Shown here: one piece after another, positions 6,932 through 30,163 of the stretch
Layout of the letters: each line of letters starts with the position of its first letter
Position numbering within the stretch: the stretch's first letter is position 1
From: a bacterium
GTDB lineage: Bacteria > Verrucomicrobiota > Kiritimatiellia > CAIKKV01 > CAITUY01
Reading direction: 5' to 3'
Assembly: GCA_037143175.1 (NCBI GenBank)
Contig: JBAWZF010000030.1
Location: 1 to 33,494, forward strand
Length of the DNA stretch: 33,494 bases
Notes under the pieces: model-generated
What the model was told of the DNA's origin: nothing
Seen by the model: only the letters and a program-made list of their open reading frames with translations
The model's database searches: none
Position numbers and translations under genes: made by a program

Positions 6932-6975
6932 AGTTTTTGACCGTCTAACCATGTAACTATGGAGGGATGAGCATC

Positions 6976-7965: not shown

Positions 7966-7970
7966 CTGGG

Positions 7971-8963: not shown

Positions 8964-9005
8964 TTCGCCCCAAGATATCAGTTCAATCATGTACATCCTG
9001 TCTAT

Positions 9006-9037
9006 CTCCGCCTCAGGCGGATGCGCCTGTGGAGCAC
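9006..9037. repeat. Dispersed palindromic repeat copy (CCGCCTCAGGCGG type)
   Basis: CTCCGCCTCAGGCGGATGCG followed by CCTGTGGAGCAC matches the element at 11553-11585 with a few substitutions, and shares its hairpin with 853-867. Intergenic; no gene assigned. Confidence 0.6.
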
Positions 9038-9091
9038 ATGTTGAACCTTTCCTGATCGCAGCCAAACCGCCGCAAAATCCCTGAAATTATT

Positions 9092-13457: not shown

Positions 13458-16148
13458 ATGGTTATGTCAAATAAAAGCCAAGCATCAACCTTTGATGTTA
13501 TCTCTTCAGAATTATCTGTTAGGGCAATGCATGTCCTTGAGAAATGCGCTATTAAGGACGGGGAAGCCTTTTTGCGGCTTACCAGAGAAGATATGTCGAG
13601 AACTTGGGGCTGTGGCAAAGGAACAATTGCCGAGATTGAAAAAAAACAGTCGAAACTTCGCATGCAAGGCGCGCGCAAAATAGTTCAATTGCCACGTATC
13701 GAAGATTGTTCCGAATCCATCCAGAGCGATGTGTTTCGTGCTATCCAGGGTGAACTCAGTGTCCGAGCCGCAAATGCGATACAATCATTAGGTATTAGCG
13801 ACTTGAAGTCATTCATGAGGCTTAATTTGGATCAACTTTTAGATTGCCGTAATTGTGGGCGCAAATCAGCCTGCGAAATTTTAAAAATTCAAGGTAGTGT
13901 TGCCGAAATGATTCAGCGCTTCGCTGTGAAGTCAGGGGATCCCAACATAAAGGAATTCTCGATTGACGTTGCCAATCCCGTGCCGTGGTTGACTAACTGG
14001 ATTCTTGGCCTTGCTAGGTCGAAACGAGAAGCGAATGCTTTCATGTTTCGGAAAGGTATGCTTGGGTTCGCCCCTATGACGCTTGATTCCGTTGCGCAGC
14101 AAGTTGGCGATGTTACGCGCGAGCGGGTTCGTCAAATGGAGAATTCCATCGAAAAGAGAGCCGCCGCCCGGTATCAACAACTTAGGTTGCGTCCACTGAT
14201 GGAAGAGATAGCGGTCGTCGTTGAACTAAAAGGTGGGATAGCAACTTCTAGAGAATTGGTTAAAGATGTTTTATGTAAAGGAACCGATAGTTCTCAATTT
14301 AGATTCGCAACAGAACTTATCGCTTATTTTGCGACGCTTCAAGTATGGAAGGACACTGGCCTAGTACTTCAAAATGGCAATAATGTCACGAAAGGGGATG
14401 CGTTGCCTCTGATCGAAAATTTGGCGTCTATTATTTGTGAGGTCGCATTAAGCGAGGCAGACGAACGAAGGTCTGATGATCTTTGGAGCATAGAGCGTGA
14501 AAGACTAAAAGGCGTTCTGCAAAAAAAAGCTCATATTCTCAACTGGATACCTGACACCTCCGTTTTGTCAGATGCAATATTTGAATCCGTGCTCGAACGG
14601 TGCAAGAATCGAATCAAAACGCGGACGAAACGGATATATTCTGCGGGTATGTGGCAACTTAGATTTGGCAACATAGTCCATATGATCGATACAATATTGC
14701 GCGATGCGAAAAAGCCTACGCACTATTCCGTAATTGCGGAAGAAGCTGCGAAATGGCGTCCCGGCTTTTCTGTCCGAAATACTTATGCGACTTTGTCCCG
14801 CTGCGAAACTGCGATGCTTTGGGATGTAGGGACGTATGTCCATCGAGACTATGTCGTTTTACCGCTCAGTCTTATTCACGATGTTGAACGCTGGCTACTT
14901 AATGCTCTGAGTGAAGATGTTCCTTACGTTTCAATATATGGCGCATTTGTTCATTTTCATTCTCGGTGCGAACAGGCGTTACTTCCTTCAGAGACCGCGC
15001 TCTACTCATGCCTAAGACAAAGCAATCACAGGAATCTTGTCTATCCGCGGCCACCCAGTGTCTATCTTTACAAAAACTTTAGTGAGAGAGTACCTGTTTC
15101 GCTTGCCCTTACCAACTTCTTGCGTGATGCTGGTGGCCCCGTAACCCAGCAGGAATTGGAGGACTTTGCGTTAAGAAGAATGTTTTTGAAGGATCATCAG
15201 TTCGCCCTTCTATGCCAGCAGTTCACTGATGTAATGCGCACCTCTGATTGGGGCTATCTGCATCTTGATAATTATGAGTATGACTGCGAATCGCTCAGCC
15301 CTGTCATAGAGTATGCACAGCAAGTTCTTTCAGGAGAGGGCCACTGTTCGATTGAAAAAATCTATCGAGATAAATGTGTGACATGCTTGACAGTAGGTAT
15401 TGATGGACCAGTCATGTTGTATTCAGCGTTTCAATGCTTCGCAAATGATGTATTTACCCTCCCATGCTACCCGCAAGTAGCAAAGCGCCATGCAGGCGAA
15501 GATGAGCGTCAGCGCTCAATTACAACACATGTGGTAAATTTTGTCCTCGAAGCTCATCGCCCATGTACCTATGAGTACCTTGATGAACATTTCGTTCAGG
15601 AGCTTGGCTATCAAGAGCAGCATGTTTACGCGATTTACCGAGAGCCGGATTTGTGCATGTATCATTCTGGATGTGTAGTTCACTTTCAAACCTTGGCTTG
15701 GAATGTCGAAAAACAACGTGCGCTAGAAAATGTTGCTGCTGATGCATATTCCTGCTCCATGCAATCTGGGGGTGTCTATTCTCGAGTCTCGCATTTAGTG
15801 GAGTCGCCAGGTCTCCCGGAACTTCCCGATGGTCTTCATTGGTCTAACACGATGGTTGCGGATATGTTGAGAAAGGGGGGGCAGTACGTGGTTCTCGGCA
15901 ACGCGCGGGAGGCATTTCTTCCGAGGAACAATAAATTTCACATACAAAGTCTGGAATCGCTTATTGGAAATATATTGGAACGTGATTGGGGGGGGGCGGC
16001 AAAATTCACAGAATTCGAAGATGCGCTTGTGAAAGCTGGAATAATTATAAAAAGCCTCACGTCCGCCATGCTGGGTTCAGGGGAAATCGTTGTCATAAAG
16101 AACGCTGAAATAATGCTGAAGGAACTATTTGATGCTCAAAGAACTTGA
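13458..16148 (+). CDS. Large DNA-binding protein: two alphaCTD-like HhH domains, sigma-70 region 4-like HTH, HARE-HTH-like domain
   Basis: This 896-aa protein is the first gene of the eight-gene operon. Residues 17-62 and 98-146 are two copies of an RNA-polymerase alphaCTD-like helix-hairpin unit (ELSVRAMHVLEK, then CGKGTIAEIEK; ELSVRAANAIQSLGI, then CGRKSACEILK). Residues 207-236 (MTLDSVAQQVGDVTRERVRQ) match a sigma region 4 HTH. Residues about 406-465 (HMIDTILRDAKKPTHYSVIA) resemble a HARE-HTH domain. The remaining half, rich in cysteine and tyrosine, is unrecognised. No nuclease motif is visible. It may recognise modified DNA or recruit the helicase encoded next, whose start overlaps its stop by 17 nt. 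ATG 13464 is an alternative start; neither has a clear Shine-Dalgarno sequence. Confidence 0.7.
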   Translation: MVMSNKSQASTFDVISSELSVRAMHVLEKCAIKDGEAFLRLTREDMSRTWGCGKGTIAEIEKKQSKLRMQGARKIVQLPRIEDCSESIQSDVFRAIQGELSVRAANAIQSLGISDLKSFMRLNLDQLLDCRNCGRKSACEILKIQGSVAEMIQRFAVKSGDPNIKEFSIDVANPVPWLTNWILGLARSKREANAFMFRKGMLGFAPMTLDSVAQQVGDVTRERVRQMENSIEKRAAARYQQLRLRPLMEEIAVVVELKGGIATSRELVKDVLCKGTDSSQFRFATELIAYFATLQVWKDTGLVLQNGNNVTKGDALPLIENLASIICEVALSEADERRSDDLWSIERERLKGVLQKKAHILNWIPDTSVLSDAIFESVLERCKNRIKTRTKRIYSAGMWQLRFGNIVHMIDTILRDAKKPTHYSVIAEEAAKWRPGFSVRNTYATLSRCETAMLWDVGTYVHRDYVVLPLSLIHDVERWLLNALSEDVPYVSIYGAFVHFHSRCEQALLPSETALYSCLRQSNHRNLVYPRPPSVYLYKNFSERVPVSLALTNFLRDAGGPVTQQELEDFALRRMFLKDHQFALLCQQFTDVMRTSDWGYLHLDNYEYDCESLSPVIEYAQQVLSGEGHCSIEKIYRDKCVTCLTVGIDGPVMLYSAFQCFANDVFTLPCYPQVAKRHAGEDERQRSITTHVVNFVLEAHRPCTYEYLDEHFVQELGYQEQHVYAIYREPDLCMYHSGCVVHFQTLAWNVEKQRALENVAADAYSCSMQSGGVYSRVSHLVESPGLPELPDGLHWSNTMVADMLRKGGQYVVLGNAREAFLPRNNKFHIQSLESLIGNILERDWGGAAKFTEFEDALVKAGIIIKSLTSAMLGSGEIVVIKNAEIMLKELFDAQRT

Positions 16149-18264
16149 TCTTAAACCCGTCTATGACAGTGCTGACTGTGATCTGGTGCGTGATCTCATT
16201 GTTCCGCTGCTTACTAATTCTAGGGATTATTGGCGCGGTGTTGGTTTCTTTACGTCAGGTTGGCTCCGTAGTGCATGCGCGGGGATTGTCCCCCTCGTAA
16301 ATGGCGGCGGGAGAGCTCGTATTGTTACTTCGCCACTGATGCAGAAACGTGACTGGGAAGCACTTCAGGCTGGGGATATCGCAAAGCGCGATACTGTCCT
16401 CCACGAGATTCTTAGAGAGCACGTTGTGGACTTAGAAAAGGCTCTTTCTCAAGATACTTTAAATGCTTTGGCGTGGATGATTGCTGATGGTGTCCTTGAG
16501 CTTAGGTTTGCAATTCCTAGAAAATTCGATATGGGGGGCGACTATCACGATAAAGTTGGTGTTTTTATTGATAAGTTTGAAGATATGGTTGCGATACACG
16601 GCTCTTTTAACGACTCCGCTAAGGGCTCATTGAATGGAGAGGCCTTCTCTGTTTTCAAGTCATGGGAGGAAGGTCAACGCCCATATGTTGAACAGCATCG
16701 TGCACGATTAACCAAACTTTGGCAAAGTGGAAATGCTCAGTTCCAGGTTCTTCTTCTGCCTGAAGCAATTAGGCACGAAATAATTAAGCTACAGACTGCA
16801 GAACGACCCTACAGAGTGCCCGCACAAATAAATCATGTCAGTCTACCTGAGGATGCCGTTCACGAGTTGGGTGTCAAATTATGGCCTTATCAAAGAGATG
16901 CTATCGATGCTTGGATTGATAATGATTTCCGTGGTATTTTTGAAATGGCAACGGGAACAGGCAAAACATTTACAGCTCTTGCAGCGGCTGCCGATCGAAG
17001 AATTGCTATGAAGCAGGTAGCCATTATCATTCTTGTGCCTTATCTTCATCTTCTTGAGCAGTGGCGGCAACATAGTGAGACCTTCGGTTTTTTTCCAATT
17101 ATGTGTAGCGGGAATCATGATCATTGGCCCTCCTCGGTTCGATCCAAAATCCAGGATTACAAACTTGGAATGTTGCCTTCCATTTGTCTTCTTGCCGTAC
17201 ACGAGACAGCTTCTACGAAAAAATTCGCAACAGCAGTCCAAAGTCTCCCCTTAGAGAGTACGTTATTGATTGTTGATGAAGTCCACCGTCTAGGGTCACC
17301 GCACCTGCGTAATGCTTTAATAACAGGCGCTGGAATGCGGTTGGGCTTGTCGGCAACCCCTCGGCGTTGGTATGACGACGAAGGTAGTCAGATGCTTTCG
17401 GATTATTTCTCTGGCGTTTGTTTCGAGTTTTCCCTGAGTGAAGCTATTGGAAAATTCTTAACACCGTATCGGTACATGCCCATTTTGACTGAATTGACCG
17501 CAGATGAACGGGATGAATATGAAGAATTATCCCGCACTATTGCTGTTCTTGCGAGTCGTAATTTTGATAATGATAGTGAGGCTGAAGAGCGGATGAAGCG
17601 CCTGCTTCTTCGTAGGGCTCAGGTTGTGTCCGTTGCTGAGAATAAACTTCCCCTTCTTCTTACAGCATTACGGCGTCAAATTGCTGGTTGCATGGACGCT
17701 GGCACAGAGTTGCGGAATGTGCTTATCTACTGCGCGCCTGGCTCTCATAAGGCTGTTCTTAGTGCGGTTTCAGGGTTGGGTTTGCGTTGCCATGAGTTTG
17801 TTCATGCTGTATCGATGAAGCATAGAGAGACATTAATAGAACAATTTGCAAAGGGCGACGTCCAGGTGCTTGTGGCTATCCATTGTCTTGACGAAGGGGT
17901 GGATATTCCGTCTACTCAAACAGCATATTTTCTTGCCAGTACGACGAATCCTCGGGAATTTATTCAGCGCCGGGGGCGGATCCTGAGAAAATGTGAGGGG
18001 AAAAGCAGCGCCGATGTTTATGATTTTATTGTTGTACCTAATGCTGAGTTTGCCTACCTTCGTCGCGAATCAGATCTTGGATTACTTCGTCGCGAAATGC
18101 CTCGTTTTGCGGAGTTTGCATCCAATGCCTCAAATGAGTTTGAAGCTCGGGCTGTCATAAGAAATATCGTAGATTCCTTTCAGGTGTTGCATCTTCTTGA
18201 TGCCAAGCCTTGGGATATATACCGCCAGGTGATGGAGTCAGTTGAAATTAAGGATAGGAGTTAG
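16132..18264 (+). CDS. PLD-like nuclease domain fused to superfamily 2 helicase
   Basis: The protein is 710 aa from ATG 16132, with AAGGA 8 nt upstream inside the previous gene. The N-terminal ~200 residues form a phospholipase-D-like domain with a single HxK half-site (YHDKVGVF, H139/K141) and the following IHGSFNDSAKG strand. The helicase follows with WPYQ (251-254), Walker A ATGTGKT (273-279), DEVH (382-385), LSATP (406-410), a motif V region VAIHCLDEGVDIPS, and motif VI QRRGR (612-616). This fusion is common in type III-like and other restriction systems, where it translocates on and cleaves unmodified DNA. It is the likely effector of the operon. The 57-aa gene starts 2 nt after the stop. 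Confidence 0.9.
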   Translation: MLKELDLKPVYDSADCDLVRDLIVPLLTNSRDYWRGVGFFTSGWLRSACAGIVPLVNGGGRARIVTSPLMQKRDWEALQAGDIAKRDTVLHEILREHVVDLEKALSQDTLNALAWMIADGVLELRFAIPRKFDMGGDYHDKVGVFIDKFEDMVAIHGSFNDSAKGSLNGEAFSVFKSWEEGQRPYVEQHRARLTKLWQSGNAQFQVLLLPEAIRHEIIKLQTAERPYRVPAQINHVSLPEDAVHELGVKLWPYQRDAIDAWIDNDFRGIFEMATGTGKTFTALAAAADRRIAMKQVAIIILVPYLHLLEQWRQHSETFGFFPIMCSGNHDHWPSSVRSKIQDYKLGMLPSICLLAVHETASTKKFATAVQSLPLESTLLIVDEVHRLGSPHLRNALITGAGMRLGLSATPRRWYDDEGSQMLSDYFSGVCFEFSLSEAIGKFLTPYRYMPILTELTADERDEYEELSRTIAVLASRNFDNDSEAEERMKRLLLRRAQVVSVAENKLPLLLTALRRQIAGCMDAGTELRNVLIYCAPGSHKAVLSAVSGLGLRCHEFVHAVSMKHRETLIEQFAKGDVQVLVAIHCLDEGVDIPSTQTAYFLASTTNPREFIQRRGRILRKCEGKSSADVYDFIVVPNAEFAYLRRESDLGLLRREMPRFAEFASNASNEFEARAVIRNIVDSFQVLHLLDAKPWDIYRQVMESVEIKDRS

Positions 18265-18266
18265 GA

Positions 18267-18440
18267 ATGGTAGAAAAACACCAATTGATCAAGGAGAAAC
18301 TCAAAAAGTATCCCCCTGAAGTTCAAGCCCTTGCTGCAAGAGCATTTGAACTCTCTCAATCCTTGCCGGAATCCGCAGTTGCAGAGCAACTCAAGGGAAT
18401 TGTTCGTCAGGTCATAAAGGATAAGGAGACTCCACGATGA
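18267..18440 (+). CDS. Small operonic protein (57 aa), unknown function
   Basis: The ATG at 18267 follows AGGAG with a 6-nt spacer and lies 2 nt after the helicase stop. The TGA overlaps the next start as ATGA at 18437-18440, so the gene is translationally coupled on both sides, strong evidence that it is real. The product is charged and helical (KEKLKKYPPEVQALAARAFE, then LPESAVAEQLKGIVRQVIKD), with no cysteines or membrane segments. It may be a small adaptor between the helicase and the DndD-like ATPase. No family is recognised. Confidence 0.7.
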   Translation: MVEKHQLIKEKLKKYPPEVQALAARAFELSQSLPESAVAEQLKGIVRQVIKDKETPR

Positions 18441-20476
18441 TTCTCCACAAAATGACCCTCACAAATTTTCGACAATTCAAAGGGTCTCATGCGATTGAAT
18501 TTGCTCGAGGAGAAGGCGGCAATGTGACCGTTATTTTCGGAGAAAATGGACGCGGGAAAACTGGCATTTATCGTGCTTTGCTTTTTTGCCTCTACGGAGA
18601 GAGGCACCTCTCGCAAGACGCACAGGTGGATGATCGTGAACTGTACTTAGTAAATTACCCGGCGATGGAGGCTAATACGGCTAATAAGCCTGTTGCGGGT
18701 AGTGTACGACTTGAATTCGAACATGCAGGGCGTTCATATGAAATTGAACGGTCCATTCTAGGGATGCTGAAAGAGGGAGAGGTGATTCAGGAGCACAATG
18801 GCGTTAGACTTGTAACGCGGGATGAGACTGGAAATGCCGTGACGAGCAGAGATCCCAATCAGATTGCGGATATTATTGGAGGTATTCTTGATCGTGGGTT
18901 AAGGGAATATTTTCTCTTTGATGGGGAAAAAATCGAACGCTTAACTCGGGCTAGTTCAGAGCAACGACGCGAAATCTCCGCCGGTGTTCGAAAGCTTCTA
19001 GACATTGATACACTTGAAACTGCCATGAAGGCAACAGAACGTCTCCGGAAATATCTGGACGCAGAAGTGGAATCACGGGCAACGGGTGAATTGGCTCGTG
19101 TGATCAAACAATTGCGAGAGAATGAGGAGCAATTTGCAGCGCGTAATCCCAGGATTGGTTCAATTGACGAGGAGCTTCAATGCGCGGGGCAGGAGAAAAA
19201 GCAAATTGATTCTGAGTTGGAAAAAATTCGAGAGATCAGGGACCTGCTAACAGCTCGGACTAATATGGAGGAAAGAGCACAAGACCTTGAGCAACAGGTT
19301 GACGCGCTTCTCCTAGATATGAAGAACCGGACAGGGAAAACCTCCCTGCTACTTGTTAGAAAGTCTGCTGAAAAGGTTTTCCGCGACATAGACAAGCGTA
19401 AGCAGAAGCATGAAATACCTTCGGAAATCCGTAGTGACTTGATTGATCGGTTGATCTCAGATGGACGATGCATTTGTGGGGCTAACATCAAGCCGGGAAC
19501 TTCTGAGCATCATAATATCCTCTTGTGGCGAAACCGGACGCCTGATGTTGGGACAGAAGATTCGATGCTTGACCTCTGGCGTTACTTGAGTGGTGTTTGT
19601 AGTCATTATGAGGATATTGGAGTGGCTGCGGAATCGGTACTTCAGAAATACGCTTTAGTCAAAAATGACCTCCAGGTAACGGGGCGCAAGGTAGAGGAAT
19701 TGCGTCAAAAGATTGGATCTTCAGAGCGTGCCGATGCTGCTAATTTAGAGAATCATCGGCATCTGCTTGAACGGAAAATAATTAAGCTGGAGGCGGAACA
19801 AGCTCAAATTAAGGATGAGCTGCTTGTCCTGCAGGATGAGCATTCAACACTTCTGCAACAGCGTAAAGAAATTGAAACGGAAAACGGTATTCGTGATGAG
19901 ATGTCGCGACGTGCTGAACTTGCAGCAATGACAAGTAATGCACTGAAATGTATTCATGAAGAATTCGCAGGGGAGACTCGTGATCGCCTAGGCGCGAGTG
20001 CAACTAAATATTTCCGTGAACTCCTCGACGCTGAAAGTAAACAGACATTGCGAGATGTAGTCGTTGATTCTGACTACAGTATTCAAGTGTATGATAGATG
20101 GCAAAAGCCTTTCTTGGCCAACATTTCAGCAGGTCAGCGACAGATTATGTCTATTGCATTTATTGCGGCGCTTGCAGAGGCTGCGGCCGGTACATCTGTT
20201 CTTGAAATGCCGCTCTTTATGGATACGCCATTTGGTCGACTATCGCATGAACACAGACGTAATCTTTTAGTAAATGTGCCTGGATGGTGTACTCAATGGG
20301 TGTTGCTCGCGACTGATACAGAGTTTGGAAGGTTTGAGGCCAAGATTCTACGCGACACGAATAAGTGGTCTCATTTCTATGTCCTGAAGGGCGCAGGCGC
20401 CGGAAGCACGAAGATCGAATCTGTGGCCGTTGATCAAGCCGATGGCCTGCTGCGTGATGAAGCGGAGGTGGTGTAA
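18437..20476 (+). CDS. DndD-like SMC/Rad50-type ATPase
   Basis: This 679-aa ABC-type ATPase begins MILHKMTLTNFRQFKGSH, typical of DndD/RecF/SMC proteins. Walker A is FGENGRGKTG (34-43). The segment YFLFDGEKIERLT (158-170) is characteristic of DndD. Coiled-coil arms (about 200-330 and 400-500) flank a CxCG hook (C345, C347). The ABC signature is ISAGQRQ (563-569) and Walker B is LFMDTPFG (593-600). In Dnd systems DndD supplies ATP-dependent DNA nicking or remodelling needed for phosphorothioation. AAGGAG 8 nt upstream and the ATGA overlap fix the start. Assignment to the family is firm; the modification it serves here is unknown. Confidence 0.85.
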   Translation: MILHKMTLTNFRQFKGSHAIEFARGEGGNVTVIFGENGRGKTGIYRALLFCLYGERHLSQDAQVDDRELYLVNYPAMEANTANKPVAGSVRLEFEHAGRSYEIERSILGMLKEGEVIQEHNGVRLVTRDETGNAVTSRDPNQIADIIGGILDRGLREYFLFDGEKIERLTRASSEQRREISAGVRKLLDIDTLETAMKATERLRKYLDAEVESRATGELARVIKQLRENEEQFAARNPRIGSIDEELQCAGQEKKQIDSELEKIREIRDLLTARTNMEERAQDLEQQVDALLLDMKNRTGKTSLLLVRKSAEKVFRDIDKRKQKHEIPSEIRSDLIDRLISDGRCICGANIKPGTSEHHNILLWRNRTPDVGTEDSMLDLWRYLSGVCSHYEDIGVAAESVLQKYALVKNDLQVTGRKVEELRQKIGSSERADAANLENHRHLLERKIIKLEAEQAQIKDELLVLQDEHSTLLQQRKEIETENGIRDEMSRRAELAAMTSNALKCIHEEFAGETRDRLGASATKYFRELLDAESKQTLRDVVVDSDYSIQVYDRWQKPFLANISAGQRQIMSIAFIAALAEAAAGTSVLEMPLFMDTPFGRLSHEHRRNLLVNVPGWCTQWVLLATDTEFGRFEAKILRDTNKWSHFYVLKGAGAGSTKIESVAVDQADGLLRDEAEVV

Positions 20477-20477
20477 C

Positions 20478-20921
20478 ATGAATATGGCTCAAGATATTCG
20501 CGTCCGAACGGACCAGCATTATCGGACTCTGTATAATGACTGCCGTAATTTTGTTGCAAAGGATATGCACGAGATTTTTTTTCTTTGCGTCTGTCTCGGC
20601 TATCGGGATGGAAAGCGCAAACCTCTGGGGCGTAGCAAGGAAGACCGTTTTTGGTCGAATACAATTACCCCAGAGGAGTATGCGAGCTTTTATGCGATTA
20701 TGATCGAATCCAATAATATGGATTTCTCTTCTATCTCAGACGATAGATTAGTCATCGCGACAATGGAAGAATACGCTAATGCAGGTATGCAAATCTTGTT
20801 GGATGATGTGCTTGCCGACTATATTTTGAAACGCGGTGATGATCTGCATTTGGATCCAAGTTGCTCGAAAGAACTTCCCAAAGTGCTGCTCGCTCATGTG
20901 TATGAGAAGGCTGGGCAATAA
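20478..20921 (+). CDS. Protein of unknown function (147 aa) between DndD- and DndB-like genes
   Basis: It starts 1 nt after the DndD-like stop with GGAGG in good position. The sequence (RTDQHYRTLYNDCRNFVAKD, then HEIFFLCVCLGYRDGKRKPLG) continues to a C-terminus with EYANAGMQILLDDVLADYIL. It resembles small helical subunits encoded beside DndD, possibly in the role of DndE, but I see no clear DndE motif. There is no catalytic signature. Position and coupling suggest a partner of the ATPase. An 87-bp gap with its own promoter separates it from the next gene. Confidence 0.65.
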   Translation: MNMAQDIRVRTDQHYRTLYNDCRNFVAKDMHEIFFLCVCLGYRDGKRKPLGRSKEDRFWSNTITPEEYASFYAIMIESNNMDFSSISDDRLVIATMEEYANAGMQILLDDVLADYILKRGDDLHLDPSCSKELPKVLLAHVYEKAGQ

Positions 20922-20970
20922 CTTTGGCTGATGGAACTGGTGAAATCAAAGAGGCACGATAATTAGAGCA

Positions 20971-21000
20971 TTGATATCTTGATATAAAATGCAGTATATA
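20971..21000 (+). promoter_or_regulatory. Internal promoter upstream of the DndB-like gene
   Basis: TTGATA (20971-20976) and TATATA (20995-21000) are separated by 18 bp, 8 bp before the ATG. The largest gap in the operon is here (87 bp). The start would be nearly leaderless, consistent with the absence of a Shine-Dalgarno sequence. Confidence 0.5.
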
Positions 21001-21015
21001 TCTGCAATATGCAGA
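21001..21015. promoter_or_regulatory. Inverted repeat across the DndB-like start codon (candidate operator)
   Basis: TCTGCA ATA TGCAGA is a perfect inverted repeat spanning ATG 21009. A third TGCAG half-site lies at 20990-20994, overlapping the spacer of the internal promoter. DndB proteins are reported to act as regulators of dnd operons, so autoregulation through this site is plausible but inferred. Confidence 0.45.
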
Positions 21016-22010
21016 TTAGAAATGCACATTTATCGATATCTGGGATGGTTGGGATGTGTGGCGACCGTGAGGTGTTTGTTGGTTTTGCCCCGGCCAAGAC
21101 CCTCCATTTGGTATCGTTTGCGGATACCTTGGACGAAGACACAGGGATAGGTTACCAGCGTCCACGAGACCGTGGCCACAGTTTGGATTTCAAACGTTAC
21201 ATCAGCACTCCCGGGGCATCGACGATTCCTCTGACGTTTAATTTGCGGCAAGATCTCAAGAAATTTTGGCGGATTGAAAGGGAAGGGGGAAAGGCTATTT
21301 TGTGGATAAACCCTGATGCCGCATGTCTTGCTCAAGTCGACTGCCAACATCGTCTTGGCGAATTGGCTGATTCTGACATCAATCTAGCTTTTATGGCATT
21401 TATTGGCCTCGATCTTCGGGGAGAGATGGCGATGTTCACCATCATCAATAGTAAAGTGCGCGGACTGCAGTCATCCCTTACAGACTTCCACGAAAGCAAC
21501 TTAATCGAAAACCTCGTCCAGGATGCACCGCAACTTTTTCTTGCAAGGAAACTAAATGAAAATTGCGACTCCCCTTGGTTTAAAATGATCCGTTATGGTG
21601 GCGAAACGAGTTCAGGGATGCAACGACGTACGTCACTTAGGATGATGCAAACGGCGATTAGGCACTTATTGACCCGCATTCGGGCAGTGGCTGGCTACAA
21701 TGTAAATGGAGTTTATGATTTGTTGCTCAATTATTGGGGTGCTGTGGCATATGTGTTTGATGCGGAATGGCAGTCGCCGCGTGAACATCTGTTAACGAAG
21801 GGTGTTGGGCTGCATGCTCTCACTGAACTGTTGGGGACTATTGTGCAACGAGAGAAAAGGGTTGATTTGAGTCGTGGCGAACTGATCGAGAAGTTGAAAG
21901 CGCTGAAGGATAATATTGACTGGGGCCGAAAGGGAACTTTCGCTGATGCTGGCGGGAGAAAAGGGGCGTCGGCAGCGCATGAGACCCTTAGAAGGAGTCT
22001 TGGGATATGA
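21009..22010 (+). CDS. DndB-like DGQHR-family protein
   Basis: This 333-aa protein has the DGQHR family core. The signature here reads AQVDCQHRLGEL (residues 109-118), with the usual glycine replaced by C112. It is followed by the conserved FTIINSKVRGLQSSL segment (143-157). Family members (DndB, DpdB-like proteins) accompany DNA phosphorothioation or 7-deazaguanine modification and influence transcription or site choice. The N-terminal MVGMCGDREVFVGFAPAKTL also fits DndB. The TGA overlaps the radical SAM start as ATGA, so the two are translationally coupled. Its own promoter and inverted repeats lie upstream. The family call is good; the biochemical role here is unknown. Confidence 0.75.
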   Translation: MQIRNAHLSISGMVGMCGDREVFVGFAPAKTLHLVSFADTLDEDTGIGYQRPRDRGHSLDFKRYISTPGASTIPLTFNLRQDLKKFWRIEREGGKAILWINPDAACLAQVDCQHRLGELADSDINLAFMAFIGLDLRGEMAMFTIINSKVRGLQSSLTDFHESNLIENLVQDAPQLFLARKLNENCDSPWFKMIRYGGETSSGMQRRTSLRMMQTAIRHLLTRIRAVAGYNVNGVYDLLLNYWGAVAYVFDAEWQSPREHLLTKGVGLHALTELLGTIVQREKRVDLSRGELIEKLKALKDNIDWGRKGTFADAGGRKGASAAHETLRRSLGI

Positions 22011-23614
22011 GAGTTCTTCTTGTTGAACCACAGTACCGGCGTAGTGGTATGCTGAGTGAAGAGTCCGAGATTATTGAAGATAGCGGGGAATTGCCTACGA
22101 AGGTCGTTGCCTCGCAACGCAACGAGGATACTCTTTGGTATCCTCCCCTTGGACTTATGAAGCTGGCGCGCTTCCATAAAAAACGTGGGGATGAAGTCGT
22201 TTTCGTCAGAGGGTGTGATCGGAAGGTCGCGATGGCCGTGGATGCTGTGGAGGGAAAAGGCATGTGGGATCGTGTCTACATCACAACTCTTTTCACATTT
22301 CACTGGGATACCATAGTTGAAACGATCAGGTTTTATAAGGAAGCTGTAGGCGGAACAGCCGGGAAAATATTTGTCGGCGGAATTATGGCCTCGATGATGC
22401 CTGACGACCTATTCGAGGAGACCGGAATTTATCCTGTAACGGGAATAGTTAATACCCCAGGTCAAATCGGTTTGGAGGGGACTGAGGTAATTGATTCACT
22501 CCCGCCTGATTACTCGATCCTTGATCGGCGACAATACGCAATTAACGATACTTATTATGCCTACACTTCGAGAGGTTGTGTAAATAAGTGTGGTTGGTGC
22601 GGTGTTCCCAGGATCGAGCCGACATATCAGGAGTACATCGACATTAAGCCGACAATTAGAACTCTTAGGGATGAATACGGGGACAAGCCAAAGTTGAAGT
22701 TAATGGACAACAATGTGCTCGCATCCGATCAACTTGGGAAAATTATCGATGATCTGGTTGAACTCGGTTATGGCCGCGGTAAATTTACGGAAACTAAACC
22801 AAAAAGAAATCGGGTTGTTGATTTTAATCAAGGGTTGGATGCAAGTTTCTTGGACGATGCGCGCATGAGCCTGCTCGCAAAGCTGAACATCAAGCCAATG
22901 CGAATCGCTTTTGATCGGGCCATTGAGCGAGATGTCTATGTGAAAGCCTTGGGTATTGCTAAAGAGCACGGAGTTCAGGAGTTCTCAAACTACATGCTAT
23001 ATAATTGGCGGGATACCCCGCATGATTTGTATGCGCGGTTGATTGTGAATATTGAGATGAATGAAAAATGGGGAAAGGGGAATAATGGACAGGCAGAAGC
23101 TGAAATATACAGCTACCCGATGAGGTTTGCCCCTATCAATGATGAACTTGGTACGCATGCGAATCGCAAAAGAGATGCCCGTCCCATGGTCGCCAATAGT
23201 GACCGCAATTGGCTGAAAGATGCCGTGTGGACTCCACGCTTTGTCCGGAATATCGAGATCATGAAAGGGGCGGCACACGGCTGCATCTCCCCGACACCAA
23301 CTCTTGCTTGGCGTACTATCGGTCAGACATATGAAGAATTTCTGGCGAACCTTTATATGCCAGAAGAACTATTACGCAACCGGAATAAGCATGAAAATAG
23401 GGTATATAAATATGAACCCAAACGTAAGCCTGGGACGGGGCTGATCGAAGGGTTTCGTTCTTTTGTTTCAAAACTGCTGAAGGTAAACGATTCTAGATTT
23501 CAGATATTTCATGCTGCGGTAAGAGGGAATTCTTCCGAACAGGTTAGGCGTGCGATAGAAATTTGTAACGACAAGGAAATGAAAAAATGGCTCCAATTAT
23601 ACCTCAAGAAATAG
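22007..23614 (+). CDS. Radical SAM enzyme with cobalamin-binding-like N-terminal domain
   Basis: This 535-aa protein has the canonical CxxxCxxC cluster in SRGCVNKCGWCGVP (C191, C195, C198), which binds the [4Fe-4S] cluster that cleaves S-adenosylmethionine. The N-terminal ~160 residues have the B12-binding radical SAM layout (YPPLGLMKLARFHKKRGDEV, then KIFVGGIMASMM), although no DxHxxG lower-ligand motif is visible. The C-terminus is long and basic (KHENRVYKYEPKRKPG). B12-type radical SAM enzymes methylate or rearrange unactivated positions. AAGGAG lies 9 nt upstream, and the gene is coupled to the DndB-like gene before it and overlaps the GHKL gene after it by 28 nt. It is the only catalytic candidate for DNA modification in the operon. 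The substrate is unknown. Confidence 0.88.
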   Translation: MRVLLVEPQYRRSGMLSEESEIIEDSGELPTKVVASQRNEDTLWYPPLGLMKLARFHKKRGDEVVFVRGCDRKVAMAVDAVEGKGMWDRVYITTLFTFHWDTIVETIRFYKEAVGGTAGKIFVGGIMASMMPDDLFEETGIYPVTGIVNTPGQIGLEGTEVIDSLPPDYSILDRRQYAINDTYYAYTSRGCVNKCGWCGVPRIEPTYQEYIDIKPTIRTLRDEYGDKPKLKLMDNNVLASDQLGKIIDDLVELGYGRGKFTETKPKRNRVVDFNQGLDASFLDDARMSLLAKLNIKPMRIAFDRAIERDVYVKALGIAKEHGVQEFSNYMLYNWRDTPHDLYARLIVNIEMNEKWGKGNNGQAEAEIYSYPMRFAPINDELGTHANRKRDARPMVANSDRNWLKDAVWTPRFVRNIEIMKGAAHGCISPTPTLAWRTIGQTYEEFLANLYMPEELLRNRNKHENRVYKYEPKRKPGTGLIEGFRSFVSKLLKVNDSRFQIFHAAVRGNSSEQVRRAIEICNDKEMKKWLQLYLKK

Positions 23615-25128
23615 AAGGTCGACGCAGTATCTCCGCTCATATAGGCCGGCAGATTCTAGATGTGATCACAGCGGGTATGTATTCTGACCCGCGTATGGCG
23701 TTACGAGAATACGTTCAAAATGCAGCGGACTCGATAGACGCCTCAATAGAGGCGGGTGTCTGTCTCGTTCCCGAGGGTTCCATCTCGATAACTTTAGACG
23801 GGAAAACGCGATCCATTTTAGTGGAAGATAATGGATTAGGCATCAAGAACGAGGATGTCGAAACACGCCTGGGTGGGCTGGGATGCAGTTCAAAAGGCGG
23901 AGGGGGGCATCGCGGTTTTAGAGGTATTGGGCGCCTAGGCGGATTAGCCTATTGTGACTTGTTGAGGTTTGAAACAAGAAGCGATGCACGGGAAAAAGTG
24001 GCAGTTATTGAGTGGTCAGGTAAAGCGTTGCGGGAACAGGTTGCAAGCGCTAAGGGGAGTGAGCATGTCGAGGCTGCTATAAGGCGCATAGCCACTATAC
24101 ATTTCAGGGCTGCCGACAAGCATGCAGATCCGGCACATTTCTGCCGTGTCGAAATGGTGAATGTCCATCGGTTTCATGCTGACGTCCTGATGAATATTAA
24201 GGGTTTGCGTGAATATTTATCGCAAATAGTGCCCGCTCCCTATGACAGAAATAAATTTCGATTTGCAGAGAAGATTGAGCGCCATCTTTCGGAGGTTTCA
24301 GGATATCGATCGTACAGTATTACCTTGAACGGAACGCCTATTGTGCGGCCGTTCCAGGAACAGGTGGTCTTGCGGGCGGAACACGAAGATCGAATAATGG
24401 ACGTTAAACTATTAGAGTTAAAAACGCCGGACGGGCGGTTGATCTGTCGGGGCTGGTACGCGATGTCACAGTTTATGTCGGCAATGCCGCCTAATGTAAC
24501 AATGCGCGGGATTCGTGTGCGGCAGGGTAATATTGGGGTCGGTGATGAAGATTTCTTAAAGGCATCATTTATTGAGCCGCGATTTGCGACGTGGCACATT
24601 GGGGAATTACATGTAGGCGAGGGGCTTAAGTTGAATGCCCGCCGCGATGGTTTTGAGGAATCGCCGGAATATGAACTTTTTCTGGAATGGAGTTCAGGCG
24701 TATGCCGACTGTTAAGCTCTTTTTGCCGCCAGTCATCCAAAGAAAGAAGCGATAAGCAATTGCAATTGCGCGTTGGTATGGCAATGGATCGGTTGTTAGA
24801 AAATACATTCTTTTTGGACGAGGATCATAAGATGGCGGCAATAAAGGCCGCGGAGATGCAATTGGCACAACTTAGGAAAATGAACCCGGCTGGGGAAGTC
24901 TCTACGAAACTTGTCAATGACTACGAAGCGCGAGTCTCTGGGTTACGTCAGAAATCGATGTTTTTGTCAGACGTTCTGAACGGTCGATCAATTGGGCGTA
25001 AGAGCGGTGAGCAGGTTCTGACTGAGGTGTGCAAACGTATTCTTGATGCAGTACCCGGTATTGCTGGAACAACCCTTCTCCGCGAGATTGTGGCTCCTTA
25101 CGTTAGGGAGCAGAAGTCCAATTCTTAG
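23587..25128 (+). CDS. GHKL-type ATPase (Hsp90/MORC/MutL-like)
   Basis: This 513-aa protein has the Bergerat fold. The N-box is ALREYVQNAADSID (38-51, catalytic E41 and Mg-binding N45), the G1 box is VEDNGLGI (79-86), and the G2 box is GHRGFRGIGRLGGLAY (107-122). The middle domain resembles the transducer region of Hsp90/MORC proteins. The C-terminal ~150 residues are helical and charged. Such ATPases clamp DNA or act as chaperones, and several defence systems use them. AAGGA lies 8 nt before ATG 23587, inside the radical SAM gene. It ends the operon; the 290 bp downstream to the convergent HD gene hold no gene. Confidence 0.85.
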   Translation: MAPIIPQEIEGRRSISAHIGRQILDVITAGMYSDPRMALREYVQNAADSIDASIEAGVCLVPEGSISITLDGKTRSILVEDNGLGIKNEDVETRLGGLGCSSKGGGGHRGFRGIGRLGGLAYCDLLRFETRSDAREKVAVIEWSGKALREQVASAKGSEHVEAAIRRIATIHFRAADKHADPAHFCRVEMVNVHRFHADVLMNIKGLREYLSQIVPAPYDRNKFRFAEKIERHLSEVSGYRSYSITLNGTPIVRPFQEQVVLRAEHEDRIMDVKLLELKTPDGRLICRGWYAMSQFMSAMPPNVTMRGIRVRQGNIGVGDEDFLKASFIEPRFATWHIGELHVGEGLKLNARRDGFEESPEYELFLEWSSGVCRLLSSFCRQSSKERSDKQLQLRVGMAMDRLLENTFFLDEDHKMAAIKAAEMQLAQLRKMNPAGEVSTKLVNDYEARVSGLRQKSMFLSDVLNGRSIGRKSGEQVLTEVCKRILDAVPGIAGTTLLREIVAPYVREQKSNS

Positions 25129-25418: not shown

Positions 25419-26942
25419 TCACTCATTAGGGGATGCCATTCGCGCTTCAATGGTCATGCGAAAAGTTTGGTCACGGAGAATATTTGTGAATGCATTATAT
25501 TTGATTTGTTCGTTCTTAAGCAGTGTCTCTTCAGCCCATTCTACAAGTACGTGCGCTTGCTTGTTATTGATTTTGTACTGTTTTATTGCGATGCACGCCT
25601 TATCCCCTTTTCGTTTATAATCGTCCCATGTGTCTACATAATGAAGCAAGGAGGCGAGAGGAAATCTTTTGGTGCTGAGAGGGACTAGGTTCCACTTTTT
25701 CCCGTCAGCATGAACTCTCCAGTCGTGCAGCATAATAGCCAGTGCTGCAGGAACCGCATGGGCGAGTACGAAGGGCCTAGATTGGCGCTCGTTTGCTGCT
25801 TTTGCATTTTCACATACTGTTCGCAGGAAATCGATGCTACCGATAACGCCATGCCATTTATATTCATCATATATCCTAATCCATTCGATTTCCAATTTGT
25901 CCCCCGCTTCGTCTGCAAACGCACCCCCATCCCAGTTGCCTGTATCCTTATCACCCATGAAGGCGGCAAGGGAGCCGAGAAGCTTTAGGGCGTTTCGATA
26001 ACCCGGTTTCTTCCAGCGGTTAGGGCTTCCTGCAATGTTAATAGTCATGTCCTCATCGTTTAGTTCATCGCGCAAAATCGCTGTTGCGTATTGTCTTGCC
26101 CCTTCCTTCACGCGTCCAATATCATGAAATATTGAAGTCAGAAGCCACGCGTATTCGATTCGGGTGGTGTGGCATCTATCAGAGTAGCGACGGTGAGCTT
26201 GATCGAAGACATTGTAGAACTTGTTGACGATGGGGCAGCCAGCGAGAAAGACCCGAAATGCATGAATGACATGCTCTGATGAACCTGGGTTTACCAAATC
26301 AAATAACTGTTCGAAGTGAGCCAACTTCATGAATTCTTTTGTAGCACCTGTGAAACTGGGGTGCTGCGCGATCAAACTCTCTATTGTGGAATAGACTAGT
26401 TCAAGGGTTCTCTTCTTGATCTTGCTCTCGTCTGATTTTTGGATTCGCCTGATATTCTTGATAAAATGGTTCAGAGTATCACAAAACATCAGCCTGCTTA
26501 AGCCCTCTGCTTGGTCCAGTATAGCCTTTGGGAAGTAACCTGTCTCATGATCGATAGTCCGAAGCTGTTGGGGGTCAATATCAGTTTTCACAATCGTCGC
26601 TAAACCCAAGTGAGGTTGTAGCGATTTCAGGCCGACCCCCATGTCTCGGCATTCAGTTTCGGTCTCAGGAAAGTCCGCTAGCCCCTTTTCGGTAACGCAA
26701 ACAACTACAACTAGACCTGGCTGCTTTTGTTTCAGAGGAACGACAACATCTCTGAATACAGAGGTTGGAAGCCGACCGCTGAGTTCGATTGCAATTGCCA
26801 GGTATCGCTTCGTTATTTTTGAGCGCAGGAACAAAGCTGGGCACCACTGCGTCTTTCTCGACCATTTGGGAGGAGTAGTCGATTCAAAGTCCGGATAAAG
26901 TCTTCGTATGTATGTCTCGATCTGTTTGATTTGGCTTGCCAT
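25419..26942 (-). CDS. HD-domain protein with unrecognised N-terminal domain
   Basis: In this 507-aa protein, residues 1-120 contain an alpha/beta segment (KITKRYLAIAIELSGRLPTS, then PGLVVVVCVTEKGL) that could be a degenerate nuclease or ligand-binding fold. The middle holds an HD phosphohydrolase core: SSEHVIHAF (H224), LLTSIFHDIGR (H273-D274), and later HAVPAALAIMLHDW and LASLLHYVDTWDDY. HD enzymes hydrolyse phosphomonoesters, nucleotides or cyclic nucleotides. AAGGA 9 nt upstream overlaps the end of the ParB-like gene, 12 nt away, so the two form an operon convergent with the eight-gene cluster. A defence role is inferred from the neighbourhood only. Confidence 0.7.
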   Translation of the reverse strand: MASQIKQIETYIRRLYPDFESTTPPKWSRKTQWCPALFLRSKITKRYLAIAIELSGRLPTSVFRDVVVPLKQKQPGLVVVVCVTEKGLADFPETETECRDMGVGLKSLQPHLGLATIVKTDIDPQQLRTIDHETGYFPKAILDQAEGLSRLMFCDTLNHFIKNIRRIQKSDESKIKKRTLELVYSTIESLIAQHPSFTGATKEFMKLAHFEQLFDLVNPGSSEHVIHAFRVFLAGCPIVNKFYNVFDQAHRRYSDRCHTTRIEYAWLLTSIFHDIGRVKEGARQYATAILRDELNDEDMTINIAGSPNRWKKPGYRNALKLLGSLAAFMGDKDTGNWDGGAFADEAGDKLEIEWIRIYDEYKWHGVIGSIDFLRTVCENAKAANERQSRPFVLAHAVPAALAIMLHDWRVHADGKKWNLVPLSTKRFPLASLLHYVDTWDDYKRKGDKACIAIKQYKINNKQAHVLVEWAEETLLKNEQIKYNAFTNILRDQTFRMTIEARMASPNE

Positions 26943-26954
26943 AAGAACAGGTCC

Positions 26955-28007
26955 TTATTCAAGAATGGTCTTATGGGTCCGACGCTTTTTCGATATAAGT
27001 GTTCTCAGAGCATCTAATCGGCTGTATAGTTCCTTTGTCTTGGCGGGGTAACTAAGCATGCCTAGAGGGCCGGGCAGTGTTTGCAGCATGTGCTCAAGGG
27101 ATTCTGCCTTTTCGATAGAGCGGTCAAGCAGGTCGAGTAATCCCGTTTGTGACTCAGGGAACTTAAGGTCGAATCGCCCCAAAACCGACTCGGCTGTCAT
27201 ATCATCGGTATTCAGAAAATCACGAAGAAGTTTTTCGGCAAATGTCTTTTCGTTAAGTCCCTGTGCTCTCGCTATAACCGGTACTATGTTCTCCATTAAA
27301 GCGCGAGTTCCTGATAGTACCTTTCGCTTCGCCTTCCGGAGGAGGATATTCCGAAGTTCATGCACTCCAAATTCTTTGAATAGATCTGGAAAATGTTGCT
27401 TAATAGGCTCTATAACGCTCACCTCAAACTGCACCAAAAAGCTCCATGAGAGTAGTTTGTTATCCACATCGTCGAGCACGCTGTCAGGGTATTTGGCGGC
27501 TTGAAGTAACGAGCTGAGTTGAGTTTTTGTGTAACCTGTGAGCGCCTGCAACTCGATGAAAGCTCCCTTTTGAAATAAGTCCGAAGAGTTTTGAGTCGAC
27601 TCTTTGAGGATGAGTTTTAATGCGCGAGTCTGAGCCGTACGCCCCCACTGCTTGCGGAGCATATGGATATGGAAGGCTTGAATGAGATCTTTTACCGATG
27701 GCTCGCGGTTGGCAACATGCGCGGGAATTTTTGCACGGTTTGTCTTCAGTGCAGCACGTAGTCTTCTTTCGCCGTCTATGAGGCTGTAGCGTTTCCCGCT
27801 GGCTTCGTCGTTTTGGCGGCAGATCACGATGGGAACTAGCACTCCGAAGCGGTAGACCGAATCTACAAGCTGGTTGAATTCTGGGTCTGCGTTGATTTGT
27901 TCCGCAGATTCACCTCGTGGGTTCTCGTTGTTGAATGCCACGTCTTTTGGATCCACGGAGATAAGTTTGTATTCTTGAGTTTTCACCGTTTTCTTTTGTT
28001 TGGGCAT
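26955..28007 (-). CDS. ParB/Srx-fold protein (ParB-like nuclease domain)
   Basis: This 350-aa protein has an N-terminal ParB-like domain: ISVDPKDVAFNNENPRGESA, then LVDSVYRFGVLVPIVIC, then YSLIDGERRLRAA (DGERR at 78-82), which is the nucleotide-binding box of ParB/Noc/Srx proteins. A central HTH-like region (ALTGYTKTQLSSLLQAAKYP) and a helical C-terminus follow. No ParA is present, so chromosome partition is unlikely; accessory ParB-like proteins often act as DNA-loading clamps or nucleases in islands. AAGGTG lies 5 nt before the ATG. A TATAAT box and a 12-bp tandem repeat lie about 140 bp upstream. Confidence 0.85.
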   Translation of the reverse strand: MPKQKKTVKTQEYKLISVDPKDVAFNNENPRGESAEQINADPEFNQLVDSVYRFGVLVPIVICRQNDEASGKRYSLIDGERRLRAALKTNRAKIPAHVANREPSVKDLIQAFHIHMLRKQWGRTAQTRALKLILKESTQNSSDLFQKGAFIELQALTGYTKTQLSSLLQAAKYPDSVLDDVDNKLLSWSFLVQFEVSVIEPIKQHFPDLFKEFGVHELRNILLRKAKRKVLSGTRALMENIVPVIARAQGLNEKTFAEKLLRDFLNTDDMTAESVLGRFDLKFPESQTGLLDLLDRSIEKAESLEHMLQTLPGPLGMLSYPAKTKELYSRLDALRTLISKKRRTHKTILE

Positions 28008-28314: not shown

Positions 28315-29148
28315 CTAGGCGATCAGCCGTTCACGGTGATATTGCAGGAAAGATTGGGATGGAGTGAAGGTGAGGGGGAGGGTAACCGCATGGTTTTCGA
28401 ACGGTTGGAACTGCTGCTGAAATGCCTTGTTGGTGTGGTGATCCTTGAGTTGAGGACTGAAGATCAGGTGGAATTGCTCGTCCAGAGAAATCAGGTGGGC
28501 GTCAAAGGCCGCATCAAAGGTTGCCGATAGGCAGAGCCCATTCGTCGGGTTCAACCGGTTGTCCTTATCTTCTGCCCAGCCTACGATATGGCTCGCTCGA
28601 AGGACCTGCGGGATGTCCAGCCCTGTGATACAACATCGTCCATCGTAAACCTGTAGGATCATCTTTCGGAAAAAGTGCTGGTTCACCCGGGTTTTAACCT
28701 CGCGGATGGCCTCCTTGCCGATCACCCCCGTGTAGTCCAATTTCTGTTTGCTTAGTTGTTTGACTAAGTCATCGGCAGAAATGCCTGGCTGTTTGAAGAC
28801 ATCCCAAAGCTTAGTTTCGTGGCGAGTTGTGATTAGGAACTCTCTGAAACTATTGAGCGCAGCGGAACAGTAGCGATCGCGCCAGTAACTGATCGGCTTT
28901 TCACCGCCGAATATGCCTGACTCCCCAAGATTCTGTTGTTCTAGTACATATTCATAGAGTTCACCAATCCGGGTGATCGTGGTAATGCCCCAGATATTGC
29001 AGCAGTCCTTAAACAGGCTGGTTGGCTTGGCCAGTATTGGGCCTAGCAAGTCCAGTGCCCGAACATAGGAACTGGCTTTACCGCTCCCGGCGGTATTGGT
29101 CTCCTCCATAAATTCGGTAAAGCGGTCGCGGGGTGTCATGGTGCTCAT
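28315..29148 (-). CDS. HNH endonuclease (HNH_2 type)
   Basis: This 277-aa protein has a C-terminal HNH nuclease core: YDGRCCITGLDIP (C172, C173), LRASHIVGWAEDKDN (H187), then LNPTNGLCLSATFDAAFDAHL (N203). This is the arrangement of HNH_2-type restriction nucleases. The N-terminal ~150 residues are unrecognised and probably give DNA specificity. The gene follows the second HNH gene by 46 nt on the same strand. A TATAAT (29152-29147) overlaps ATG 29148. If used, the transcript would begin close to ATG 29139 (MTPRDRF), giving a leaderless mRNA and a 274-aa protein. Confidence 0.85.
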   Translation of the reverse strand: MSTMTPRDRFTEFMEETNTAGSGKASSYVRALDLLGPILAKPTSLFKDCCNIWGITTITRIGELYEYVLEQQNLGESGIFGGEKPISYWRDRYCSAALNSFREFLITTRHETKLWDVFKQPGISADDLVKQLSKQKLDYTGVIGKEAIREVKTRVNQHFFRKMILQVYDGRCCITGLDIPQVLRASHIVGWAEDKDNRLNPTNGLCLSATFDAAFDAHLISLDEQFHLIFSPQLKDHHTNKAFQQQFQPFENHAVTLPLTFTPSQSFLQYHRERLIA

Positions 29149-29177
29149 TATAACGGTAAGTTAAGATTAAGGGTCAA
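29147..29177 (-). promoter_or_regulatory. Promoter for possible leaderless HNH transcript
   Basis: Minus-strand TTGACC (29177-29172) and TATAAT (29152-29147) are separated by 19 bp. The TATAAT box includes the first ATG of the gene, so transcription would start at about the second ATG (29139). Confidence 0.4.
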
Positions 29178-29194
29178 GTTTCCATATTCCGCCA

Positions 29195-30163
29195 TCAGCA
29201 GGCGTCTCGCAACAATTCCATCCGCCGATCGATCGCCTCTTTTTTGGGTTTAAGCCTGATGTCACTGGGTAAGATGACGGTCTTGTTCCTCAGTCGCATG
29301 ACTTCTCGTTGTCCCTCGATCCTTTCATTCATGCCGTCCCGGATATACCAACGCAGATCATCATACACCGTTCCGCGTGCCGGTCCCGGTGCAATCAACT
29401 GGCAGTCCATCAACCAGTGATGGTTTTTGCAGAGCGCCATGCCGTTTTGGGGCGAATCGTCGCGGGTTTCGCTGAATGGGATCAAGTGCGCAGCATCTAT
29501 GAGGGTGACTTCGTCAAATAGGAATCGGATGCCACATGCGGCACACCGGTAGTCGTAAGCCTTCTTGACGGTTCGGGCGAACGCCGCATCGCGGGCGGTG
29601 GTCGCGGTTTCACCGGGGTTGACCTGGTAACCATGATCCCGCCATGTCTCGCGTACCATGCCGATTTGGCGCTCCTCACCGGATAATTCCAGCAGGGATT
29701 GCCGCTGGACGCTGAAATACCGGTCAATTATGGCCTGCCGCAGTATTTCCCGGCTTGCCGGTTGTGAGAACAGAACGAAAAGATCGGGATCCAGAGTTGC
29801 ATAGGACACGTTTGCCATGAGTGTTGCCCCACTACGGGCTGAGCCCGAATTCACCTCTTTTCCCGGCTGAGAATTGAGATGCCAAAACCGCTCGCCTCGC
29901 AGATAGAAGAAGGGATTCCATGGTGTGCATTGATCCGTCGGCCCCTTCACAACATTGAAGTACCGCTTAAATAACTCGAGCAGTTCAGGCCCATAAATGA
30001 TCCTGTTCTCGACAAGTTGACCGTTATCGGCCAAGGAAAGGACCGCAAGGAGCATGCAAGCCTTGTGGGGGCGGGGCCGCCCTTCATGCTGATCCGTTCG
30101 CAAGGACTGGAATCGGTCGCAGTACTGCTGAAGCATACTGCTTGTTGTTGCGCTGTAACTCAT
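29195..30163 (-). CDS. HNH endonuclease with SBD-like (phosphorothioate-recognition-type) N-terminal domain
   Basis: In this 322-aa protein, residues about 30-135 match the pattern of the sulfur-binding domain of ScoMcrA-type enzymes: RPHKACMLLAVLSL, then IIYGPELLELFKRYF, then NPFFYLRGERFWHLN. In that family the motif is usually YPF, here NPF (residues 83-85). Residues 205-253 form the HNH site: YRCAACGI (C207, C210), IDAAHLIPF (H226), NGMALCKNHHWLMD (N240, H248/H249). SBD-HNH proteins are type IV enzymes that cut phosphorothioated DNA. Its neighbourhood contains DndB- and DndD-like genes, which is striking. SBD identity is by pattern and should be tested structurally. Confidence 0.8.
   Translation of the reverse strand: MSYSATTSSMLQQYCDRFQSLRTDQHEGRPRPHKACMLLAVLSLADNGQLVENRIIYGPELLELFKRYFNVVKGPTDQCTPWNPFFYLRGERFWHLNSQPGKEVNSGSARSGATLMANVSYATLDPDLFVLFSQPASREILRQAIIDRYFSVQRQSLLELSGEERQIGMVRETWRDHGYQVNPGETATTARDAAFARTVKKAYDYRCAACGIRFLFDEVTLIDAAHLIPFSETRDDSPQNGMALCKNHHWLMDCQLIAPGPARGTVYDDLRWYIRDGMNERIEGQREVMRLRNKTVILPSDIRLKPKKEAIDRRMELLRDAC

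Follow-up and report, generated by a model that had tools for sequence, protein, structure and literature searches.

Restriction by PbeABCD was described as dependent on phosphorothioation of the DNA by the Dnd enzymes, and 165 PbeAC loci have been found without a nearby modification gene, for which pairing with other modifications was proposed (Xiong 2019, PMC6459918). The ABC-ATPase/DndE core is also able to recruit cytosine methylases (Rakesh, Aravind and Krishnan 2024, PMC10853773). A complete pbeABCD set is encoded in a 33,494-nucleotide stretch of bacterial DNA (contig JBAWZF010000030.1; here termed the window), in an operon that also encodes a radical-SAM enzyme. The question that this locus raises is which enzyme marks the DNA of the host where pbeABCD occurs without Dnd, and whether the radical-SAM enzyme, put forward in a preliminary description of the window as a candidate DNA-modifying defence enzyme, takes that part.

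A pbeABCD operon with a radical-SAM gene

The operon extends from position 13458 to 25128 in a single direction, with gene ends that mostly overlap or nearly touch, and comprises the following genes in this order:

13458-16148 (+), large 896-aa protein with RpoA-CTD-like repeats and a sigma-region-4-like HTH, the first gene of the operon (PF03118, 9.6e-14)
16129-18264 (+), pbeA, an SF2 helicase with an N-terminal nuclease-like region (PADLOC PbeA, 1.9e-213)
18267-18440 (+), pbeB, a small protein of 57 aa between pbeA and pbeC (open reading frame; homologues at the equivalent place)
18437-20476 (+), pbeC, a DndD-like ABC ATPase of the CxC clade (PADLOC PbeC, 8.4e-167)
20430-20921 (+), pbeD, a DndE-like small protein, dnd_assoc_4 (weak profiles, position, phmmer)
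21009-22010 (+), DGQHR-domain protein, a DndB/DpdB relative of the ParB/sulfiredoxin superfamily (TIGR03187, 2.1e-36; DndB Pfam, 2.4e-7)
22007-23614 (+), radical-SAM enzyme with a B12-binding-like Rossmann N-terminus (open reading frame, Pfam, AlphaFold2, Foldseek, 109 full-length relatives)
23587-25128 (+), GHKL (HSP90-like) ATPase (HATPase_c_3, 6e-9; Foldseek match of the model to TRAP1/HSP90, 3.5e-16)

PbeA additionally matches TIGR04095 (2.4e-135), under that profile's cut-off. A pbeB homologue occurs at the equivalent place in one relative (L038; 2.2e-13), with similar peptides in three others (L064, L073 and L082), while PbeD is recognised by its position, two weak profile matches (TIGR04062, 2.8e-4; PbeD, 0.0058) and a phmmer match to the Haloprofundus PbeD (3e-8). 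The 896-aa protein, homologues of which are encoded in six other Pbe-type radical-SAM loci, was considered as PbeB and rejected, PbeB being 66 aa long in the original system (Xiong 2019, PMC6459918) and the 57-aa pbeB being present at 18267-18440. The coupling of the radical-SAM gene to a DGQHR gene, as previously described, is borne out by both the TIGR03187 match (2e-36) and the 4-nt overlap (ATGA) of the DGQHR stop with the radical-SAM start; the radical-SAM and GHKL genes overlap by 28 nt. Among plasmid records, the 12 closest DGQHR relatives are all found in records with the radical-SAM gene, and the thirteenth is DpdB. An Rfam scan of the window gave no match.

DndC (TIGR03183) was absent from the window genome (95% complete) and from 15 other genomes with the radical-SAM gene, in a search where no control genome scored above the cut-off. 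In Ruegeria pTHAF33_d, dndCDE and a cysteine desulfurase gene lie beside an HTH-pbeABCD-DGQHR set, and in Haloprofundus pMHR1-1 a site-specific DNA methyltransferase gene directly follows pbeD of pbeABCD. In four relatives of the window locus (L064, L073, L082 and L097) it is the radical-SAM gene that is located directly after pbeD. Beside pbeABCD, this enzyme thus takes the position that Dnd or a methylase occupies in other loci, suggesting that it is the DNA-modifying subunit, and it may be the self-mark enzyme for part of the 165 PbeAC loci without a modification gene. The Ruegeria 'sigma factor-like' protein occupies the place of the 896-aa protein, yet shows no pairwise match to it, and none was found between the DGQHR proteins of Ruegeria and the window. 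Directly downstream of one Pbe-type radical-SAM locus (L097, 12177-17190), an EVE-AAA (McrB-like) protein and McrC are encoded, a possible candidate reader of modified DNA.

Facing the operon on the opposite strand are genes for a 507-aa protein without a Pfam match (25419-26942, -) and a ParB_N protein (26955-28007, -), both rejected as parts of the system since they do not recur in other radical-SAM loci. Two tandem HNH_2 endonuclease genes (28315-30163, -) adjoin the system, which is consistent with a defence island. Further away, the window codes for a protein with DUF4041 and T5orf172 (GIY-YIG-like) domains (31512-33353, +) and, consecutively, a WYL-domain regulator, a RhuM/Fic protein and an ADP-ribosylglycohydrolase (6967-10036, +).

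The radical-SAM enzyme and its predicted chemistry

The radical-SAM gene starts with ATG and codes for a protein of 535 aa, in which the CxxxCxxC motif of the preliminary description was recovered at the same three cysteines. Two motifs stand out in the alignment of its relatives:

22577-22600 (+), CxxxCxxC motif of C191, C195 and C198, the predicted ligands of the [4Fe-4S] SAM cluster (invariant in 169/169 sequences)
22820-22840 (+), family signature D272-F-N-Q-G-x-D278, near-invariant (alignment of 169)

The first reads GC(191)VNKC(195)GWC(198) in the window protein, and no cysteine other than these three is conserved in the alignment. D272, F273, N274 and Q275 of the second are likewise found in all 169 sequences. 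Together with the further near-invariant polar positions E204, D234-N-N236, R299, D303 and R344, the signature likely constitutes the active site, judging by conservation.

As a single sequence, the protein scores below the curated cut-offs of Pfam for both the B12-binding domain (E=1.8e-5; 25 bits against 32.1) and the Radical_SAM domain (E=9.5e-4; 19.8 bits against 29.5). The AlphaFold2 model, built from 63 sequences, has a mean pLDDT of 89.7 and a pTM of 0.88, and its top PDB fold matches in Foldseek are AprD4 (3e-9), TsrM (5e-9) and MiaB (2e-8), at 11-13% identity; TokK and OxsB are also matched. The Pfam matches, the model and the fold matches together identify a radical-SAM enzyme with a B12-binding-type N-terminal Rossmann domain, and in the model the CxxxCxxC motif falls within the radical-SAM barrel. 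Homologues with a conserved gene order exist, which rules out chance. The basic C-terminus noted earlier is real in the window protein (+12 across the final 80 residues). Net charge is zero or below in 65 of the 109 full-length relatives, however, and a DNA-binding tail was rejected, since only some members of the family have a basic end; this feature lends no support to an action on DNA.

The type of Rossmann domain at the N-terminus is a feature of class B radical-SAM enzymes, seen here in the sub-threshold Pfam match and the folds of TsrM, TokK and OxsB. The cobalamin-domain-like N-terminus proposed before is thus upheld as to its fold; the DxHxxG motif is missing from it throughout the alignment. 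This motif is also missing from some class B radical-SAM enzymes, and of the structural relatives, TsrM binds cobalamin, whereas AprD4 has this type of domain but no cobalamin. C-methylation may be considered a candidate chemistry if cobalamin binds. The class A methylases (Cfr/RlmN) were set aside, as their extra catalytic cysteines are missing from the 169 sequences, where three cysteines are conserved. Similarly, neither the auxiliary [Fe-S] cluster cysteines of the MiaB/RimO/BioB/LipA type nor those of the SPASM type are conserved among these sequences. Sulfur insertion, one of the chemistries previously suggested, is disfavoured because just the three SAM-cluster ligands are conserved and an auxiliary cluster is lacking; methylthiotransferase and phosphorothioate-like reactions were rejected on these grounds and on the absence of DndC. 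A better fit is a radical reaction that modifies a carbon atom of a base or sugar.

Relatives in bacteria and phages

Alignment-based scans of public genomes and of viral contigs each listed relatives, at least hundreds in all, and the 80 best matches of either scan were taken; a scan of the viral contigs with the single radical-SAM protein gave no match. The best 80 listed from the scans, plasmid records and genomes of the same phylum together provided 109 full-length loci, and restriction modules were defined by clustering all open reading frames that neighbour the radical-SAM genes. Among the matches listed, a recognised module is present in 87 of the 109 loci, and many of the 22 loci without one are on short contigs. 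A ParB - small protein - SNF2 helicase - ParB module occurs in 41 of the 109 loci listed. Thirteen loci have a large DGQHR protein that weakly matches HEPN_Swt1, and ten have the PbeABCD module. DISARM-like DrmA (2e-178) and DrmB (1e-58) are accompanied by a NERD helicase and UvrD in nine loci, and HerA by a NurA-like protein in another nine; the names HerA and NurA are taken from the annotation of homologues in Marinitoga camini virus 1 (HMM, 3e-117 and 2e-40). A PIN_8 protein together with a second GHKL protein accompanies other loci. GHKL is encoded in 80 of the 109 loci, directly downstream of the radical-SAM gene in 72, where the two usually overlap or lie at most 23 nt apart. The top seven plasmid matches to the SNF2 helicase (at least 39% identity) all come from records with the radical-SAM gene.

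No DNA methyltransferase was found in the genes flanking selected Pbe-type and DISARM-type loci (by Pfam; elsewhere by motif). Two gene sets have clean boundaries. In Clostridium ultunense DSM 10521 (L044) the DISARM-like set and the radical-SAM gene lie between purine genes, and in a Pbe-type relative (L041) PbeA, PbeC, a PbeD-like protein, the radical-SAM enzyme and GHKL are encoded between isocitrate-dehydrogenase-like and pseudouridine-synthase genes; a methylase is encoded inside neither. Seven DISARM-like loci, mostly of Clostridia (L068, L074, L077, L079, L081, L108 and L123), combine DrmA, DrmB, the NERD helicase and the radical-SAM enzyme, with no methylase found, and represent a possible candidate for an unrecognised DISARM class. 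Plasmid pNL1 of Novosphingobium aromaticivorans DSM 12444 (NC_002033.1, L020) carries PIN-GHKL, DGQHR-rSAM-GHKL (rSAM, the radical-SAM gene) and a large DGQHR gene.

In a maximum-likelihood tree of the 109 enzymes, constructed by a quick method and with some long branches, the window enzyme (Pbe) is sister to that of a ParB-SNF2 locus (L037; support 97), and a second Pbe-type enzyme (L041) is sister to another from a ParB-SNF2 locus (L045; support 100). The starred branches force at least six changes of label for Pbe and at least four for DISARM. The modules have thus been swapped repeatedly around the radical-SAM enzyme, which remains constant while the restriction half is exchanged, as expected of a modification component.

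Shorter forms of the enzyme, of about 290-440 aa, are encoded in phages (phrog_9298; 9.4e-38 to the window protein). The form of about 400 aa is preceded by a gene of the ParB superfamily, usually with overlapping ends, whose products have a common C-terminal motif (WLANGE...GVMKRCGLL) and match phage families annotated as DNA methyltransferase or ParB. In most loci of the form of about 300 aa a fixed partner is missing. A search with the phage ParB protein returned 18 loci, in 15 of which the radical-SAM gene is next and in three, near-identical to each other, just its first codons. In the latter (L208, L209 and L211) these codons are joined in frame to a terminase-like open reading frame, an apparent natural deletion of the radical-SAM writer. 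GHKL is encoded in none of the 65 phage-form loci listed, which provides an internal control for its association with the full-length enzyme.

The proposed defence system and its known counterparts

The operon in the window quite probably constitutes a restriction-modification-like defence system in which the radical-SAM enzyme writes a DNA mark that PbeABCD reads. In such a system the radical-SAM enzyme would place a mark on the DNA of its own host, with the DGQHR protein as a partner that engages the DNA, on the model of DpdB and its neighbour DpdA. The HSP90-like GHKL ATPase would serve as an accessory of the writer or couple it to restriction, and PbeABCD would sense whether DNA bears the mark and block unmarked invading DNA. 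In the relatives the same writer would be joined to other restriction modules. We infer this role, and the action on DNA that the preliminary description had proposed, from gene context: the enzyme occupies the modification position next to several restriction modules that are unrelated to one another, these swap repeatedly around it on the tree, it takes the place of Dnd or the methylase beside pbeABCD, and a phage form coupled to ParB exists. A consistent association of homologues with lipid or peptide pathways, previously named as the observation that would speak against a DNA-modifying role, was looked for and did not overturn it.

Taken by itself, the genomic context fits a writer, an eraser or an enzyme whose target is one of the system's proteins alike. 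The radical-SAM enzyme could instead convert nucleotides into a small antiviral compound, like the prokaryotic viperins, with its neighbours as independent or auxiliary effectors. In favour of this, viperins are the radical-SAM enzymes known from defence, members of the present family lie in defence loci, and viperin appears far down the list of fold matches. This match is generic for the superfamily (E 0.04), however, and the PADLOC models, the viperin defence profile among them, did not match the enzyme at E<=0.1, so that a prokaryotic viperin was rejected. The ties of the enzyme to DNA-binding partners (DGQHR and ParB), as well as to modules whose action in other systems requires a DNA mark, also speak against such a product, while the phage copies beside ParB and terminase argue against a self-poisoning antiviral, and this explanation is unlikely.

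About as improbable is an activating modification of RNA or of a protein of the system, such as the GHKL ATPase or the DGQHR protein. The position of GHKL directly downstream in most loci would agree with it, as would the resemblance to TsrM and MiaB, which act on a small molecule and on tRNA, respectively. The phage form does without GHKL, however, which is thus not needed as a substrate; SPASM-type cysteines are not conserved, and DNA, rather than one protein, is the likely target common to the partner modules. Least probable is the removal or repair of a DNA mark or lesion, for while the gene context is DNA-centred and damaged DNA is the substrate of some radical-SAM enzymes, such as spore photoproduct lyase, no other writer was detected in the loci of the adjoining restriction modules and the enzyme takes the place of the methyltransferase after pbeD.

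With a DNA-marking enzyme as the preferred reading, it seems likely, if somewhat less so than for the window itself, that this family, which spans more than ten bacterial phyla and extends to phages, uses radical chemistry to write a new DNA mark and is an interchangeable writer for at least five restriction modules. The family probably represents a large undescribed group of modification-dependent defence systems with exchangeable restriction modules. To our knowledge, the marks in the DNA-modification defence systems known so far come from methyltransferases, from phosphorothioation or from 7-deazaguanine. With a radical-SAM writer, a chemistry that can functionalise unreactive carbon atoms would join them, and a new natural DNA mark would be predicted. 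Such a writer would also offer a possible answer to the question of which self-mark is used by PbeAC loci that lack both Dnd and methylase genes. An association of radical-SAM enzymes with DGQHR, pbe, DISARM, defence islands or DNA modification was not described in the open literature searched. The presence of the family in cultured strains, including N. aromaticivorans DSM 12444 (pNL1) and C. ultunense DSM 10521, makes the proposal directly testable.

The closest known counterpart is the DndCDEA-PbeABCD system, which has the complete pbeABCD set, its gene order and its overlaps in common with the window and, in Ruegeria pTHAF33_d, is likewise accompanied by genes for a DGQHR protein and a large HTH protein; in the window genome DndC is missing and the modification slot is instead occupied by the radical-SAM enzyme and the GHKL ATPase. 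With the Dpd system the window shares a DGQHR protein, DpdB being a close named relative (PADLOC, 7e-20), but the window protein scores 74.7 bits against the DpdB cut-off of 300, and neither the transglycosylase DpdA nor queuosine genes were found among the annotated genes of the operon. DISARM systems consist of DrmA, DrmB and DrmC with a methyltransferase, DrmMI or DrmMII. Homologues of DrmA and DrmB are encoded ahead of the radical-SAM gene in nine relatives, though not in the window, and these nine differ in having a NERD helicase-nuclease and a UvrD helicase, with no methyltransferase found. AprD4, TsrM and MiaB resemble the window enzyme in overall fold, including the N-terminal Rossmann-type domain, but at low identity (11-13%) and with other substrates, and MiaB requires an auxiliary cluster for which the window enzyme lacks the cysteines. 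The phage proteins of phrog_9298 are shorter, lack GHKL and are coupled to ParB in a subset, yet form one enzyme family with the window protein, with the DNN and DFNQG motifs in common.
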